A stretch of DNA of 64,000 bases from Thermoanaerobaculia bacterium (GTDB taxonomy: Bacteria > Acidobacteriota > Thermoanaerobaculia > Multivoradales > JAGPDF01), in NCBI GenBank assembly GCA_018057705.1, contig JAGPDF010000001.1, positions 1 through 64,000 on the forward strand, read 5' to 3'. A program made the position numbers and the translations under genes. The number at the start of each line of letters is the position of its first letter. Within the stretch, counting starts at the first letter, position 1. This document shows, one piece after another, positions 12,613-27,088 of this stretch. Under the pieces are notes generated by a model that saw only the letters and a program-made list of their open reading frames with translations, was not told where the DNA came from and searched no databases.

Positions 12613-12656
12613 GTGTTAACTACCTACAGGCCACCCGGCTGCCGCGTAGAAATTGC
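12613..12656 (+). promoter_or_regulatory. Inverted-repeat regulatory element, copy A
   Basis: The arms are GTGTTAACTAC (12613-12623) and GTAGAAATTGC (12646-12656), separated by 22 bases. The right, gene-proximal arm matches the family consensus best and continues into CTCTTCCCG. A -10-like TACTTT (12682-12687) begins 37 bases from the start of that arm, with TTCCCG in the -35 position. The site serves the lmo0937-family gene at 12771. The left arm is degenerate, consistent with one-directional use. Confidence 0.65.
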
Positions 12657-12770
12657 TCTTCCCGCGGAACGACAGAACGGCTACTTTTCAGAGGCGCCCG
12701 GAGGGGCGGCGACCCGTGACGCCGCCGTTCGACGCAGCATCTCGAACCCGCTTCTGAAAGGGGACTTCTC

Positions 12771-14800: not shown

Positions 14801-14887
14801 TCACCTTCCCCGGCGCCAGTAGAAGCCGCCGCCGCCAAAGACCAGGACCAGGACGATGATCAGGAGAATCAGGTTCGTGTTGCTCAT
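14801..14887 (-). CDS. 28-residue hydrophobic stress-type peptide
   Basis: This very short gene encodes one hydrophobic helix (NLILLIIVLVLVFGGGGFYW) followed by RRGR. It has a good ribosome binding site (GAGAGGGA six bases before the ATG). The LLIVLVLVFGGGG pattern resembles small DUF3309-like peptides common in stress islands, but it is too short for a firm assignment. Inverted repeat copy B lies 62 bases upstream on its coding side. A CATACT hexamer (14908-14913) is positioned as a -10 element, one helical turn further from the repeat than at the other sites. Confidence 0.7.
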   Translation of the reverse strand: MSNTNLILLIIVLVLVFGGGGFYWRRGR

Positions 14888-14948
14888 GGTTGTCCCTCTC
14901 TTTCTGAAGTATGGGCAAGTCTGTTCCGTTCCTCCCCGTGCGTGAAGC

Positions 14949-14993
14949 GCACTTTCTACCCGGTTGCAGAGCCGCGATTCAGGTAGAAACTGC
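14949..14993. promoter_or_regulatory. Inverted-repeat regulatory element, copy B
   Basis: The arms are GCACTTTCTAC (14949-14959) and GTAGAAACTGC (14983-14993), with a 23-base spacer. The symmetry extends outward to GTGAAGC on the left and GCTGCAC on the right. The 19 bases 14941-14959 are identical to the left arm of copy D at 27036-27054, although the spacers are unrelated. It lies between the 28-residue peptide gene (minus) and the GGDEF gene (plus). Confidence 0.7.
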
Positions 14994-15250
14994 GCTGCAC
15001 GAGCACCCGCCCGCCAGGTAGCCCGAGAAATCGGCAAGGGGCGCCTACCTCGGCGCGCCGGTGCGAGATCCTGAGCTCCTCGCCAGAGCTCCGCAGTCTG
15101 GATTCCGGAGACGAATCAGGCCCCCCCGTGCCTCTCCCGAAGGCTCCACGGCCCGGGTACGCCTCGGCAGCTCCGCGCAAGTCGTTGATTTCATTGAATC
15201 GAACACCTTGCCGGTCGGTCCTCTCGATGGTCAAGGGAAGGTCCCCAAGT

Positions 15251-16853: not shown

Positions 16854-18536
16854 CTACTGCGGCGGCTTCTGACCCTCGTTCGAGCTGTTCTGCTTCTGAC
16901 TCTTCTTCTTGTTCTTCTGCTGCTCCTGCTGCTTCTCCTCTTCGGTCTGTTCCTTGCCCTGCTTGCCCTTGCCGCCCTTCGGGGGCTTCGCCTCCTCGGT
17001 GGCGGCCTGGGGGGCCTTGCCCTGGCCCTTCGCCTTCACGGCGCTCGCCTCGGCGGCCTGGCGCTGGATCTGCTGGCGGTTCTTCAACTGCGCCGCTTCG
17101 CGCTCGCGCAGCAGCTGCTGCTCGGCGCGCTCCGCCGCGTGACGCTTCTGGATCTCCTGCGCATCGGCCTTGGGAGCTGCCTGTCCTTTCGCCTTGGCCG
17201 CTCCCTGGGTCTCGGCCGTGGCCGCGCCTTTCCCATCCGATCGATCCTTCGATTTCTGCTCCACCTGGGCCTTCTCGCGGCGCTGGATCTGTTCCACGGC
17301 CTGCTGCTGCTTCTGCTGGTTCGCCTTGAGCTCCTCCTGCTCACGCGCGAACTGCTTTTCGTTCACCTTCTGCGGCGCCGTCTGGACGCGCGGCGCGACC
17401 GCAATCGGCACCTTGTCGGAGTTCTGCTTGCGCTCCGAGCTCGCCGTGGGCGGCCGGTTGGCGGGAGCGGTGTCGGGGGCCTGGGCCCTGGGGGCCTTCT
17501 CCGGCTTTGCCACTTGGCGCAGTCCGGCGTTGTTGCGCTTGGCTACCTTGACCGACTCGAGCTTGGTCTCGGCCGGACGGTAGATCCGCACGACGTCCTT
17601 TTCGATCACGTTGGTGGTGGGCGCGCTCGCGTTGGCAACGCGCATGCGCTGCGCCCGCCTGCCGGTCACCCTCTCGACACGCTCGACCGGAACACCCCGA
17701 TTGATCACCCGGTTGTCCACCACGGTGTAGTTGGTGATGTTCGTGGTGTTGTGGATGATCGTCACGTTGCGCGCCTCCGGCACGATGTAGCCGCCGATAC
17801 GGTTGTCGAGAAAGCGGCGCTCCTCGACGAAGGCGTAGTTGCGCGGCGCGATTCCGAAGCTCAAGTTGAACCCACCGAGCTGGATGCCGACCCGCACATC
17901 GAAGCCGACGGCCGGCGGCAACGGCGCCCAGCCGATATAACCGTTGCCCTGCTGCCAGGCCACCCAGGCCGGGCCCCAGTCGGTGCCGGGGACCCACAGC
18001 CAGCCGACGTAACGGTCCCAGGCCCAGCGGCCGTAGTGATAGGTCGCCCAGCCGAAGCGCTCGTAGGAGACCCAGGTCCAGCCGTAGTCGCTCATGACCC
18101 AGCGGCCGACAGAGTAAGGACGCCAGCCCGCGTGGACGTTGCGCGGGAACCAGACCCAACCGTAGTAGGGATGCCGCACCCACTCGCCGTACGGCGAGAG
18201 CTCGTTGTAGAAGAAGCCGACCTCTACAGAGGGCGGCTGATAGCGGTTGTCGCGACCGCTGTAGTCGTCGTAGCCACCGTAGCCACCGGAGCCACCGGAG
18301 CCATCGTAGCCATTGCGATCGTAGTCGTCGTTCGACTGGCGTTCGTACCAGTCGTCACCCTCACGCCAGTCGTCTTCGTACCGGCCGGGATCGTAGCCCT
18401 GTCCCTGCTGGCCATACTGTCCCTGCGGCCCCGGCCCCGGATTACCGGGCGGGCCGTACGGATCGGACTGGGCCTCTGCCACGCCGACGGCGAATCCCGC
18501 CGCGAGCATCACCATTGCGATTCGATTCCGTCTCAT
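16854..18536 (-). CDS. Secreted DUF6600-like Trp/Tyr-rich surface protein
   Basis: This 560-residue protein has a signal peptide (about 1-23, ending VAEAQ). A Gly/Tyr/Asp-rich low-complexity linker (about 25-105) follows. Next comes a region with repeated aromatic units such as GEWVRHPYYGWVW, GWRPYSVGRW and YGRWAWD (about 115-215), typical of DUF6600. The C-terminal half (about 300-560) is a highly charged Lys/Gln/Glu/Ala coiled coil. GGAGGTAAC ideally precedes ATG 18536; an upstream in-frame Met at 18581 is less likely. Inverted repeat C lies 150 bases upstream. Such proteins are thought to be cell-envelope associated, and the function is unknown. Confidence 0.8.
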   Translation of the reverse strand: MRRNRIAMVMLAAGFAVGVAEAQSDPYGPPGNPGPGPQGQYGQQGQGYDPGRYEDDWREGDDWYERQSNDDYDRNGYDGSGGSGGYGGYDDYSGRDNRYQPPSVEVGFFYNELSPYGEWVRHPYYGWVWFPRNVHAGWRPYSVGRWVMSDYGWTWVSYERFGWATYHYGRWAWDRYVGWLWVPGTDWGPAWVAWQQGNGYIGWAPLPPAVGFDVRVGIQLGGFNLSFGIAPRNYAFVEERRFLDNRIGGYIVPEARNVTIIHNTTNITNYTVVDNRVINRGVPVERVERVTGRRAQRMRVANASAPTTNVIEKDVVRIYRPAETKLESVKVAKRNNAGLRQVAKPEKAPRAQAPDTAPANRPPTASSERKQNSDKVPIAVAPRVQTAPQKVNEKQFAREQEELKANQQKQQQAVEQIQRREKAQVEQKSKDRSDGKGAATAETQGAAKAKGQAAPKADAQEIQKRHAAERAEQQLLREREAAQLKNRQQIQRQAAEASAVKAKGQGKAPQAATEEAKPPKGGKGKQGKEQTEEEKQQEQQKNKKKSQKQNSSNEGQKPPQ

Positions 18537-18683
18537 TGTTACCTCCATTGGTGGAACCTGATAGTGCGGAGCAACCGACACTCCGCGGCACTGCGCGACG
18601 ACCCACGGGCCGATCGCTGACGCCGCGCCCGAGTGTCCCCGAACGTGACTCCAACCTAGTCTGCAGATCTCGTGCCGGGAAGA

Positions 18684-18727
18684 GCACTTTCTACGCGGCT
18701 CTCCATCGTCGTCTGCGTAGTTAGTGC
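18684..18727. promoter_or_regulatory. Inverted-repeat regulatory element, copy C
   Basis: This is the most symmetrical copy. GAAGAGCACTTTCTAC (18679-18694) and GTAGTTAGTGCTCTTC (18717-18732) match at 14 of 16 positions across a 22-base spacer. It lies between two divergent genes. A -10-like hexamer occurs on both sides at the same distance: TAGGTT on the minus strand and TTAAAT/TAAATT on the plus strand, each starting 36-37 bases from the proximal arm. It therefore looks like a shared activator site for the DUF6600-like and CsbD genes. Confidence 0.72.
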
Positions 18728-18823
18728 TCTTCCTCGCGCCCGCGCCGGGAATTAAATTGAACGCAAGCTGCGCACCGACGCGCGGCCGGGACGCGGTTCG
18801 CCGAGATCCGCCGAGGAGACGGG

Positions 18824-19024
18824 ATGAGTCAGGAAATGGATGGCAAGGTCAAGAAAGTCACCGGCCAGGTGAAGGAGGCCGCCGGCATTCTCACGGGCAA
18901 CGAGAAGCTCGAACAGAAAGGTGCGGCGGAGCGCGCCGAGGGCGCCGTCGAAGAGAGCCTGGGTAAGGCGCGGCGCAAGGTCGGCGAGCTCGTCGACGCC
19001 GTCGCCAAGGCGATCAAGGAGTAA
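18824..19024 (+). CDS. CsbD family stress protein
   Basis: This 66-residue hydrophilic helical protein carries the CsbD pattern: DGKVKKVTGQVKEAAG, then a Gly/Asn turn, then LEQKGAAERAEGAVEE. In Bacillus subtilis csbD belongs to the sigma-B general stress regulon, and in other bacteria relatives respond to osmotic or stationary-phase stress; the biochemical role is unknown. GGAGACGGG precedes the ATG. It is followed three bases later by the GlsB-type gene, with which it forms an operon downstream of inverted repeat C. Confidence 0.9.
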   Translation: MSQEMDGKVKKVTGQVKEAAGILTGNEKLEQKGAAERAEGAVEESLGKARRKVGELVDAVAKAIKE

Positions 19025-19027
19025 GCG

Positions 19028-19309
19028 ATGACCATCTCACTCCCGGCACTCCTGATCCTGCTGGTGATCGCCGCCGTCTGCGGCGCCCTGGGCAAGGCGA
19101 TCGCAGGCGACGTGCGCGGCGGCCTGCTGGTCTCGATCGTTCTCGGTTTCATCGGCGCGCTGCTCGGCCCATGGGTCGCCGGCAAGCTCAGCCTCCCCGA
19201 GCCGTTCATGCTCTCGATCGGCGGGCACCCGTTCCCGATCCTCTGGTCGATCATCGGCTCCGCCCTCTTCGTAGCCCTGATCCACCTCTTCTCGCGCCGG
19301 CGGTGGTAG
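19028..19309 (+). CDS. GlsB/YeaQ/YmgE family stress-response membrane protein
   Basis: This 93-residue inner-membrane protein has three hydrophobic segments (about 5-24, 33-52 and 72-87). Gly-rich motifs GALGKAIAG and VLGFIGALLGPWV are typical of the transglycosylase-associated (GlsB/YeaQ/YmgE) family. Relatives are induced by osmotic, acid or stationary-phase stress. It starts three bases after the csbD-like stop, so the two are cotranscribed from inverted repeat C. Confidence 0.88.
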   Translation: MTISLPALLILLVIAAVCGALGKAIAGDVRGGLLVSIVLGFIGALLGPWVAGKLSLPEPFMLSIGGHPFPILWSIIGSALFVALIHLFSRRRW

Positions 19310-20426: not shown

Positions 20427-21065
20427 TCAGAGCAACTTGTGCTCTTCGGCGAAATTCACCAGTTCGACCCGGCTGGCGAGGCCGAGTTTGCCCATCAGGT
20501 TGGCGCGATGGTTCTCCACGGTGCGCATCGAGAGCTCGAGGAGGTTGGCGATCTGCCGGTTCGTGTTGCCCCTGGCGAGCAGTCGCAGGACGTCGATCTC
20601 GCGCCGGGTCAGCGGATTCGCGGGCGCCCCGCGCCGGTGCTCCGACGTCACGGGCTGGTGCAGGAGCGCCCGGGTCATGGCGGGATGGACATAGATGTCG
20701 CCGCGCATCGCGGCATGGATCGCCTGGAGAATCTCCATCTCTTCGGCCCGCTTGATCACGTAGCCGGCCGCTCCGGTGCGCAGCGCCTCGTGCAGCAGCG
20801 CCTCGTCCTCGTGCATGGTGAGGAAGAGCACCTTGATGCCGGGGTGCACCTCCTTGAGCCGCTGCGCGATCCTGACGCCGCTCTCCTGCGGCATCGTGAT
20901 GTCGAGCAGGATCAGATCCGGATGGAGCTCGGCGGCCAGCTGCATCGCCTCGACGCCGTTCGCCGCCTCGCCGACGACGTCGAGATCGGTGTCCGCACAG
21001 AGCAGTGCCCGGAGGCCCGAGCGCACGACGGCGTGGTCGTCAGTGATGAGGATGCGGATCGGCAC
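20427..21065 (-). CDS. NarL/LuxR-family response regulator
   Basis: This 212-residue regulator has an N-terminal receiver (about 1-120) with the acidic pocket at D9/D10 and phospho-acceptor D55 in LLDITMP. The C-terminal LuxR-type helix-turn-helix (about 148-210) contains PLTRREIDVLRLLARGNTN and SMRTVENHRANLMGKLG. It is the last gene of a five-gene minus-strand operon and overlaps the preceding kinase gene by 26 bases. That kinase is of the HisKA_3 class, which pairs with NarL-type regulators, so it is almost certainly the cognate kinase. It is the only obvious DNA-binding product of the operon and therefore a candidate binder of the inverted repeats, a hypothesis from context. Confidence 0.92.
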   Translation of the reverse strand: MPIRILITDDHAVVRSGLRALLCADTDLDVVGEAANGVEAMQLAAELHPDLILLDITMPQESGVRIAQRLKEVHPGIKVLFLTMHEDEALLHEALRTGAAGYVIKRAEEMEILQAIHAAMRGDIYVHPAMTRALLHQPVTSEHRRGAPANPLTRREIDVLRLLARGNTNRQIANLLELSMRTVENHRANLMGKLGLASRVELVNFAEEHKLL

Positions 21066-23070
21066 TCGCCACCTCCACGACGATCGTCGTCCCCGCGCCG
21101 GGGGAGCTCTCGAGCGTCAGACTACCGCCCAGGGCTTCGGCGCGCTCCTTCATTCCGAGCAGGCCGAAGTGGTCGTGACGCTGGGCCTGCATGGGATCGA
21201 AGCCCGCGCCATCGTCCTCGACCATCACCATCACCCGGTCGCCGCGGCGCTCCACCAGGATATCGACCCGTTTCGCGGCGGCGTGGCGCACGACGTTGGT
21301 CATCGCCTCCTGCACTACGCGGTAGAGCGCCGTCTCCACGACGGTGGGCAGCCGTTGGTCCGTGAAGCCGAGCGCTTTGAAGTGCACCGCCAGGCCGAAC
21401 TTCGCGGCCGCTTCGCGGGAGTACTGGCGAAGGGCCGCATCGAGGCCCAGGTGATCGAGGCTCGCCGGCCGCAGATCGGCGGCCAGACGGTGCAGGCCGT
21501 CGATCACGGCGTCGGTCGTCTTGACCAGCTCGGCGACCCGTCCGGTGATCTCCCCGCCGTTGGCGATCTCGCGCTCCAGCAGACGAAGACCGATGCGCAG
21601 CGAGGTCAGCGACTGGCCCGCCTCGTCGTGGAGCTCGCGGGCGATGCTGCGCCGCTCGCTCTCCTGCGCTTCGACCAGCCGGCGGGAGAGCGCCTGCATG
21701 CGCAGGGTCGAAGCCTGCATTTGCGCGAAGAGCACCGCATTCTCCACCGCGACCGAGGCCTGGGAGGACATCGTCTCGGCGAGACGGACCTGGTCCTCGC
21801 TGAAGGCATCGGCCTCGACTTTGCCGAGCGCCACCAGCCCGGCGACGTTGCCGCGCGCGAACAGCGGCACGCCCATCCAGCTCCCCGCGGGAGCCGCGAC
21901 CGTGGGCAGCTTCCATTCGGGGTGGAGGGAGAGGTCGGGGATCAGGACGGCGGCGCCGCTGGTGAGGATGCCGTGCACGATCGGGTGGTCGGAGGCCTCG
22001 AACTCGGGCCGCTTCTCCGCCGGCAAGGGAACGACACGGTTGCCGTCGAAGACCGCCCTCACGGAGAGCCGGGTCGCCTCCTCGATCAGCATGACGCTGG
22101 CACGATCGAAAGGCACCAGCTGGCGCAGACGGTCGAGCAGCGTCACCAGCACGACCTCTCGGTCGAGGCTGCGCGTGAGCTCGATGGTCGCCTCACGCAG
22201 CTCTTCCGCCACGCTGCGGGCACGGCGTTCGGCTTCGAGCGCGTTCCATCTCTCGGTCACGTCGCGCGCCACGGTGAGCACGGAGTGCGGGGCGCCGGCG
22301 TCCCCGAACTCGGGCACCAGCCGGCAGTCGAACTGCACCGTCCCCTGCAGCGCGGGAAAGGCGAGCTCCAGGCGCTCGGCGTTCCCGCTCGAAAGCACGC
22401 GGCGGAGAGCTGTCTCCCAGGTGTCCAAGAGGTCGGCCGGCATGCCCAGTTCGCGGCTGGTCTTGCCCAGGAACTCTTCCGGCCGCAGGCCCGTTACGGC
22501 TTGAACGGAAGGGCTCATGTAGAGGAAGTGCAGGTCCGGATTCAGGCGCGAGATGACGTCGGGCAGGTTCTCGACCAGCGTGCGGAAGAGGCGGGCAGCA
22601 ACCTTGGATTCCGCCTCCTCTTCGACGAGCGCCTCCCGCAGCGCCTTGCGCTCGACGGCATGCACCAGGGCGCGTTGCAGACTCCGCGTCTCGATCTGGC
22701 CCTTGACGAGAAAATCCTCGGCACCCGCCTTCAGGGCCTCGACCGCCAGCGCCTCGTTGTCGAGCCCGGTCACCACCACCAAAGGCACTCGCGGTGCCGC
22801 GCCGTGGGCCCTGCGCACGGCCTCCAGTCCCTGCGCATCGGGCAGCCCCAGATCGAGGACCACGACGTCGACCGCCCCCAGCTCGAGGTGCCTCTCGGCC
22901 TCCCGCATGGTCGCGACATGAGCCAACTCGATACCGCGAGCGCTGCCCTCGGTGATGAGCTCGCGAATCAGTCGCGCATCGCCGGCACTGTCCTCGACCA
23001 GCAGCAGCCGCAGGACCGGGTCGGCAGCGCGAGCGCCCGGAGGGGTTCGAGGCGGGTTCACACTCACCAT
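21040..23070 (-). CDS. Soluble REC-PAS-GAF-HisKA_3 sensor kinase
   Basis: This 676-residue cytoplasmic kinase starts with its own receiver domain (about 20-140, acceptor Asp in VVLDLGLP). A PAS domain (about 160-285, FLYMSPSVQAVTG) and a GAF domain (about 305-460) follow. The HisKA_3 dimerisation helix carries the phospho-histidine in SIARELHDEAGQSL (about 480-495). A NarX/DegS-type ATPase domain is at the end, with VVQEAMTNVVRHA and GLLGMKERA. The receiver input suggests a phosphorelay fed by another kinase, perhaps the first gene of this operon. The gene overlaps its neighbours by 7 and 26 bases. No membrane segment is visible. Confidence 0.9.
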   Translation of the reverse strand: MVSVNPPRTPPGARAADPVLRLLLVEDSAGDARLIRELITEGSARGIELAHVATMREAERHLELGAVDVVVLDLGLPDAQGLEAVRRAHGAAPRVPLVVVTGLDNEALAVEALKAGAEDFLVKGQIETRSLQRALVHAVERKALREALVEEEAESKVAARLFRTLVENLPDVISRLNPDLHFLYMSPSVQAVTGLRPEEFLGKTSRELGMPADLLDTWETALRRVLSSGNAERLELAFPALQGTVQFDCRLVPEFGDAGAPHSVLTVARDVTERWNALEAERRARSVAEELREATIELTRSLDREVVLVTLLDRLRQLVPFDRASVMLIEEATRLSVRAVFDGNRVVPLPAEKRPEFEASDHPIVHGILTSGAAVLIPDLSLHPEWKLPTVAAPAGSWMGVPLFARGNVAGLVALGKVEADAFSEDQVRLAETMSSQASVAVENAVLFAQMQASTLRMQALSRRLVEAQESERRSIARELHDEAGQSLTSLRIGLRLLEREIANGGEITGRVAELVKTTDAVIDGLHRLAADLRPASLDHLGLDAALRQYSREAAAKFGLAVHFKALGFTDQRLPTVVETALYRVVQEAMTNVVRHAAAKRVDILVERRGDRVMVMVEDDGAGFDPMQAQRHDHFGLLGMKERAEALGGSLTLESSPGAGTTIVVEVASADPHPHH

Positions 23071-25689: not shown

Positions 25690-25693
<4 letters not shown>
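25232..25693 (-). CDS. Rcp1-like single-domain response regulator
   Basis: This 153-residue receiver has no output domain. It carries EDNPGDVRLTREAF (about 18-31), acceptor D70 in LILLDLNLPRMDG and the conserved Lys in CYLAKPVQ (K122). This pattern, with an extended C-terminal helix, is typical of Rcp1-type regulators that serve PAS or phytochrome-type kinases by shuttling phosphoryl groups. The gene overlaps both the upstream kinase and the downstream GGDEF-EAL gene by ATGA junctions, so stoichiometric, coupled translation is likely. Confidence 0.9.
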
Positions 25694-26832
<1,139 letters not shown>

Positions 26833-27043
26833 CGTCTGCTCTGCCCGGTGCGCGCCACGGTGCCGGCGGTGCCGGCCGAGGCCGATCCCTCCCGGCGGAG
26901 GAGCCGTGTACTCTGCCTGACGCGCGCCGCACGAGACCCGACCCGCGGTGCGGCCGCAACCGCCATGACTGTGAGTAGCATCGAGCACCCGCCCCTCTTC
27001 GCCTGCTTTTCAAATCTAAATTGCAGCGCGGCCAACGTGAAGC

Positions 27044-27088
27044 GCACTTTCTACGCCCGGGCGCGCCGGCTCACTAGGTAGAAACTAC
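27044..27088 (-). promoter_or_regulatory. Inverted-repeat regulatory element, copy D
   Basis: The arms are GCACTTTCTAC (27044-27054) and GTAGAAACTAC (27078-27088), with a 23-base spacer. On the minus strand the proximal arm reads GTAGAAAGTGCGCTTCACG, and TTAGAT (27014-27019) follows at the -10-like distance of 36 bases. It therefore faces the five-gene signalling operon starting at 26832, with a leader of about 170 bases. The distal arm diverges after GTAGAAACT, and there is no gene on that side to activate. Confidence 0.7.

Follow-up and report, generated by a model that had tools for sequence, protein, structure and literature searches.

Copy C, a 54-base, nearly symmetrical pair of inverted arms in the intergenic region between divergent DUF6600 and csbD-glsB genes, is probably an activator region common to two divergent promoters of one two-component regulon; judging from sequence, we put the probability of this reading at roughly 0.75. 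In the mechanism that we propose, each arm would serve as a near site (GTAGWAAGTGCKCTTC) that touches the -35 region and has its centre about 43 bp upstream of the predicted start, and would double as the far site, further upstream, of the promoter on the other side. A phosphorylated NarL-family response regulator would occupy the two arms as dimers that lie on one face of the DNA, some three helical turns from each other, and would recruit polymerase both ways, so that DUF6600 and csbD-glsB would be switched on together. The arms, the grammar and its spacing, the recurrence on the same gene families and the linkage to a regulator gene are observed in the sequence; we infer which protein binds, that it activates rather than represses, that the two directions fire simultaneously and where transcription starts. 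We lean slightly toward a fuller reading, in which divergent promoters of a two-component regulon with a strict two-site grammar have been fused, each near site being the other's far site, and two stress operons may be forced to fire as one.

Predicted divergent promoters at copy C

The left arm of copy C is GAAGAGCACTTTCTACGC (18679-18696) and the right arm, in its minus-strand reading, is GAAGAGCACTAACTACGC (18732-18715). The arms are identical at 16 of 18 positions overall and at 14 of the first 16, the latter being the match given in the preliminary description. That description also placed -10-like hexamers at equal distances on both strands, and both indeed begin exactly 36 bp from the inner (GTAG) end of their own arm. 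The divergent flanking genes that it named, DUF6600-like and csbD-glsB, were confirmed by domain matches (Table 1). The whole 286-bp intergenic region holds only three TANNNT hexamers, two on the plus strand and one on the minus strand, and the composition-based chance that one stands at precisely the required offset on each strand is about 1e-5 to 3e-5. Across the window, the 64-kb stretch of DNA analysed here, the arm motif has five matches, with 0.5 expected from shuffles and no shuffle reaching five.

Table 1 Features of the window that bear on copy C and its promoter family. PWM, position-weight model.
Feature	Position	Strand	Details
Copy C, double near-arm element between divergent DUF6600 and csbD-glsB	18679..18732	.	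Arms 16/18 identical
Near site of leftward promoter, GTAGAAAGTGCTCTTC	18679..18694	-	PWM near score 31.8, equal to best training sites
Near site of rightward promoter, GTAGTTAGTGCTCTTC	18717..18732	+	PWM near score 24.5; 1 off-consensus base
-10-like TAGGTT, leftward (DUF6600) promoter	18653..18658	-	Within consensus CTAGGTT; 20-bp offset from near site exact
-10-like TAAATT, rightward (csbD-glsB) promoter	18753..18758	+	20-bp offset from near site exact
DUF6600 gene, left target	16854..18536	-	PF20245, E 4.3e-35
csbD gene, right target	18824..19024	+	PF05532, E 9.4e-14
glsB (GlsB/Transgly_assoc family) gene	19028..19309	+	PF04226, E 5.2e-6; 3 bp after csbD
NarL-family response regulator (receiver + GerE), proposed activator	20427..21065	-	PF00072, PF00196; motif co-occurrence/proximity
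HisKA_3 histidine kinase (receiver, PAS, GAF)	21040..23070	-	Overlaps regulator gene
Copy A promoter	12613..12687	+	Far 12613-12624, near 12646-12661, -10 TACTTT 12682-12687; PWM total 45.9
Copy B promoter	14918..14993	-	Far 14993-14982, near 14959-14944, CAGACT at -10 position 14923-14918; PWM total 45.9
Copy D promoter	27013..27088	-	Far 27088-27077 (12/12 consensus), near 27054-27039, -10 TAGATT 27018-27013; PWM total 63.8

The predicted starts of the copy C promoters lie at about 18646 (-) and about 18765 (+). The distance between them, about 119 bp, could leave room for two polymerases back to back. The plus side is the weaker of the two in both its -10 and its near site.

The two-sided form recurs once. 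A relaxed back-to-back search of 149 genomes of the class, in which the arms were relaxed and each side had to carry TANNNT at the exact offset, returned two sites, copy C and a site in a genome of another family (G027:C178:10431-10537, locus L141); the control returned none. The second site, about 4 kb from that genome's regulator, is flanked by a dodecin gene (+) and a divergent gene (-), one starting on each side. A strict double near-arm search of the 149 genomes matched copy C only. Among the relatives searched we found no ortholog of copy C and no genome that keeps the csbD/DUF6600 arrangement: csbD is missing from the other genomes of the family, except for an unlinked gene in G006, and DUF6600 is represented there by weaker-scoring matches on other contigs.

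The genes on both sides of copy C belong to families of the regulon. One-sided sites of their own precede DUF6600 genes in two relatives (G027, G116) and csbD, alone or in an operon, in five (G027, G076, G116, G120, G121). The motif also recurs before genes for BON-domain proteins, a 27-30 aa membrane peptide, Lmo0937-like and ice-binding-like proteins and an ECF-type sigma factor. The suggestion that copy C is a bidirectional activator site is supported in part: both strands fit an externally learned promoter model at the exact spacing, csbD and DUF6600 carry one-sided copies in relatives and a second double site occurs in another family. On these sequence grounds a bidirectional reading of copy C appears well supported.

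A two-site promoter grammar

Read toward the gene, the consensus across relatives comprises a far site (GTAGTTTCTACC), a gap of 21-24 bp, the near site, 20 bp and (C)TAGNTT. The far-near gap is 23 bp in 30 of the 36 training sites, and the offset from near site to -10 is exactly 20 bp in 31. These 36 sites, on which the position-weight model was trained, came from other genomes only and included none from the window. The training and proximity sets were built through near-arm searches; the invariance of the near-site columns is therefore partly built in, as the search pattern required the near arm, and the far site, the spacing, the -10 and the leader length should be the more independent evidence. 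Many unrelated target genes share a predicted leader of about 25 nt, and this speaks for the predicted start.

Applied to the window, the externally trained model found only five strong promoters: D- (63.8), C- (46.4), B- (45.9), A+ (45.9) and C+ (41.9). The next scores, 30.1 and 8.3, fell on the reverse sides of B and D, and the same model found no strong promoter in the reversed window sequence. By sequence, A, B, C and D are one family of putative promoter elements. Copy A lies upstream of an Lmo0937-like gene at about 12773, and copy D upstream of a PAS histidine kinase gene (25690-26988) in which kinase domains were found. Copy B precedes the gene of a 28-aa membrane peptide (14801-14887, -; product MSNTNLILLIIVLVLVFGGGGFYWRRGR), and G035 and G116 have near-identical small genes after the motif, G118 and G120 similar ones. 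TANNNT is absent at the expected -10 offset of copy B. Its outer arm (14983-14998, +) scores 18 as a reverse near site and has no -10, so that B looks intermediate between the one-sided and two-sided forms.

In copies A and D, which have a target on one side only, the arm away from the gene had been described as degenerate. At D it is not; it matches a separate, conserved far-site consensus at 12 of 12 positions, and the outer arm of A is a weaker form of that site rather than plain decay. The idea that each arm works with its own promoter holds in that each arm of copy C is a near site with its own -10, but it is incomplete, as one-sided sites have for their outer arm a conserved far site, about 33 bp from the near site. 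Each arm of copy C therefore probably serves both promoters.

If the TA is placed at -12, the near site runs from about -48 to about -33 and the centre of its GTAGWAAGTGC core falls near -43; the CTTC of the site then provides a TTCNNN hexamer with the usual 17-bp spacing to the -10. The centres of the far sites lie 32-35 bp further upstream, or about three helical turns. A near site that abuts the predicted -35 region at a fixed distance from the -10 is the geometry of a class II activator.

The grammar has about 60 occurrences in some Thermoanaerobaculia, and its reversed pattern none. The combined pattern was found in 13 of 149 genomes of the class (reversed control, 0 of 149). The exact two-arm pattern had eight matches in about 85,000 bacterial and archaeal genomes, every one in an Acidobacteria/Thermoanaerobaculia record. 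From these sequence matches the regulon looks small and restricted to some Thermoanaerobaculia (Acidobacteriota). We rejected a mobile repeat, since the sequence between and outside the sites is unconserved among copies. A viral origin was also rejected; the five viral-contig matches to the two-arm pattern lack CNCTT and are chance-like in AT-rich sequence.

Candidate regulator

The activator of copy C is likely the NarL-family response regulator encoded 2 kb away at 20430-21065, and the overlapping HisKA_3 kinase gene likely encodes its partner. Orthologs of the regulator (at least 64% identity) occur in 13 of the 149 genomes and the motif in 14, with an overlap of 11 (Fisher p=2e-12, an optimistic value because the test treats related genomes as independent). 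The nearest site lies 39-2874 bp from the regulator in all 10 genomes that carry both on one contig. The regulators of motif-bearing genomes form one supported clade (99/98). Two clade members, G135 and G122, have the regulator and no motif; their recognition helix reads TVEGHR versus TVENHR, with TIESHR in the motif-bearing G027. Conversely, no close ortholog was detected in three motif genomes, of which G001 is 84% complete and G006 and G016 have their sites on contigs of 6.6-9.7 kb. The mismatches between regulator and motif are partly explicable by the incompleteness of G001, the short contigs of G006 and G016 and the recognition-helix difference in G135 and G122.

The closest solved relatives of the regulator over its full length are VraR and NarL (structures 7ve6 and 1a04; E 1e-35). 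Their targets differ from those proposed for the window regulator, and their DNA sites differ from the copy C motif.

Alternative explanations and known systems

We weighed copy C against two independent promoters placed back to back, in which each arm would serve its own promoter and nothing would be held in common. Each arm forms a complete near site and has a -10 of its own, and as far sites the arms match the consensus poorly, scoring 2.6 and 9.8 against a typical 15-24. Such low scores fit a compromise between two roles, and independent arms are also compatible with them. What makes independent arms doubtful is that nearly every near site in other genomes has a far site at a distance of 21-24 bp, and that copy C retains this spacing (22 bp between its arms) together with the common CTAC half. 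It is improbable that another regulator binds the motif and that the NarL-type protein is merely a co-located target or neighbour. The three motif genomes with no close NarL-type ortholog would favour this; against it stand the strong co-occurrence, the proximity in 10 of 10 measurable genomes and the fact that the regulator and kinase accompany the motif while the adjoining target genes change.

Direct reading of the element by an alternative sigma factor, with the near arm as a long -35, would explain the fixed spacing between near site and -10 and the ECF-type sigma gene that follows the motif in some relatives. We consider it very unlikely: a conserved stretch of about 16 bp with a second site three turns upstream is too long and too distant for a -35, the -10 looks sigma-70-like, with TTC at the usual 17-bp spacing, and the regulator gene tracks the motif. 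An RNA hairpin formed by the inverted repeat (an attenuator, terminator or processing site) was rejected and is hardly credible. The strand does fold strongly, at -40.8 kcal/mol (z -6.35), but it has no terminal U run and matches no Rfam family, and the near and far positions show no pairwise co-variation (T stands opposite T in 14 sites and A opposite C in 12). Copy C also lies upstream of both predicted starts and would be transcribed from neither promoter.

The proposed activator region common to both promoters has a precedent in kind. In Mycobacterium tuberculosis, DevR/DosR, a member of the NarL subfamily, has paired sites at the divergent tgs1-Rv3131 and narK2-Rv1738 promoters; the start-proximal site overlaps the -35, and full induction needs cooperative occupancy of both sites (PMC3029386). 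The tgs1-Rv3131 case means that this kind of arrangement is already known, and copy C resembles it in its paired sites between divergent genes, its near site at the -35 and the proposed binding of a NarL-family regulator. The DevR sites are close-packed and adjacent, whereas in the copy C family about 33 bp separate the site centres, the gap is fixed at 21-24 bp, the near and far consensus sequences are distinct, and the site sequence and the lineage differ. Symmetrical bidirectional promoters of Escherichia coli have common or overlapping core elements and starts mostly 10-23 bp apart, at which polymerases compete (PMC12825309). Divergent transcription from near-symmetrical sequence, predicted at copy C, is the shared trait, but the predicted starts of copy C are much further apart and its symmetry resides in activator sites. 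Our search of the open-access literature found no paper on this regulon, and as far as that search went the regulon, motif, spacing and lineage are new.

These results yield a testable regulator, binding motif and target list (CsbD, GlsB, BON, DUF6600 and small membrane stress proteins) in a group of largely uncultured bacteria. Copy C would offer a natural experiment in which one activator drives two promoters through common sites, and the strict spacing makes single-base predictions testable in a reporter strain.

Two further features of the motif were seen in relatives. Perfect near sites with no -10 at the usual offset (L132 7774, -; L135 6456, +; L134 6767, -; L133 8127, +) sit directly before related membrane-protein-like genes, and three of them lie downstream of another copy. 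The motif also precedes an ECF-type sigma gene (Sigma70_r2) around 8532 (-) in L132, at 5698 (+) in L135 and at 770 (+) in L098, which suggests a regulatory cascade in which the two-component system controls a sigma factor.
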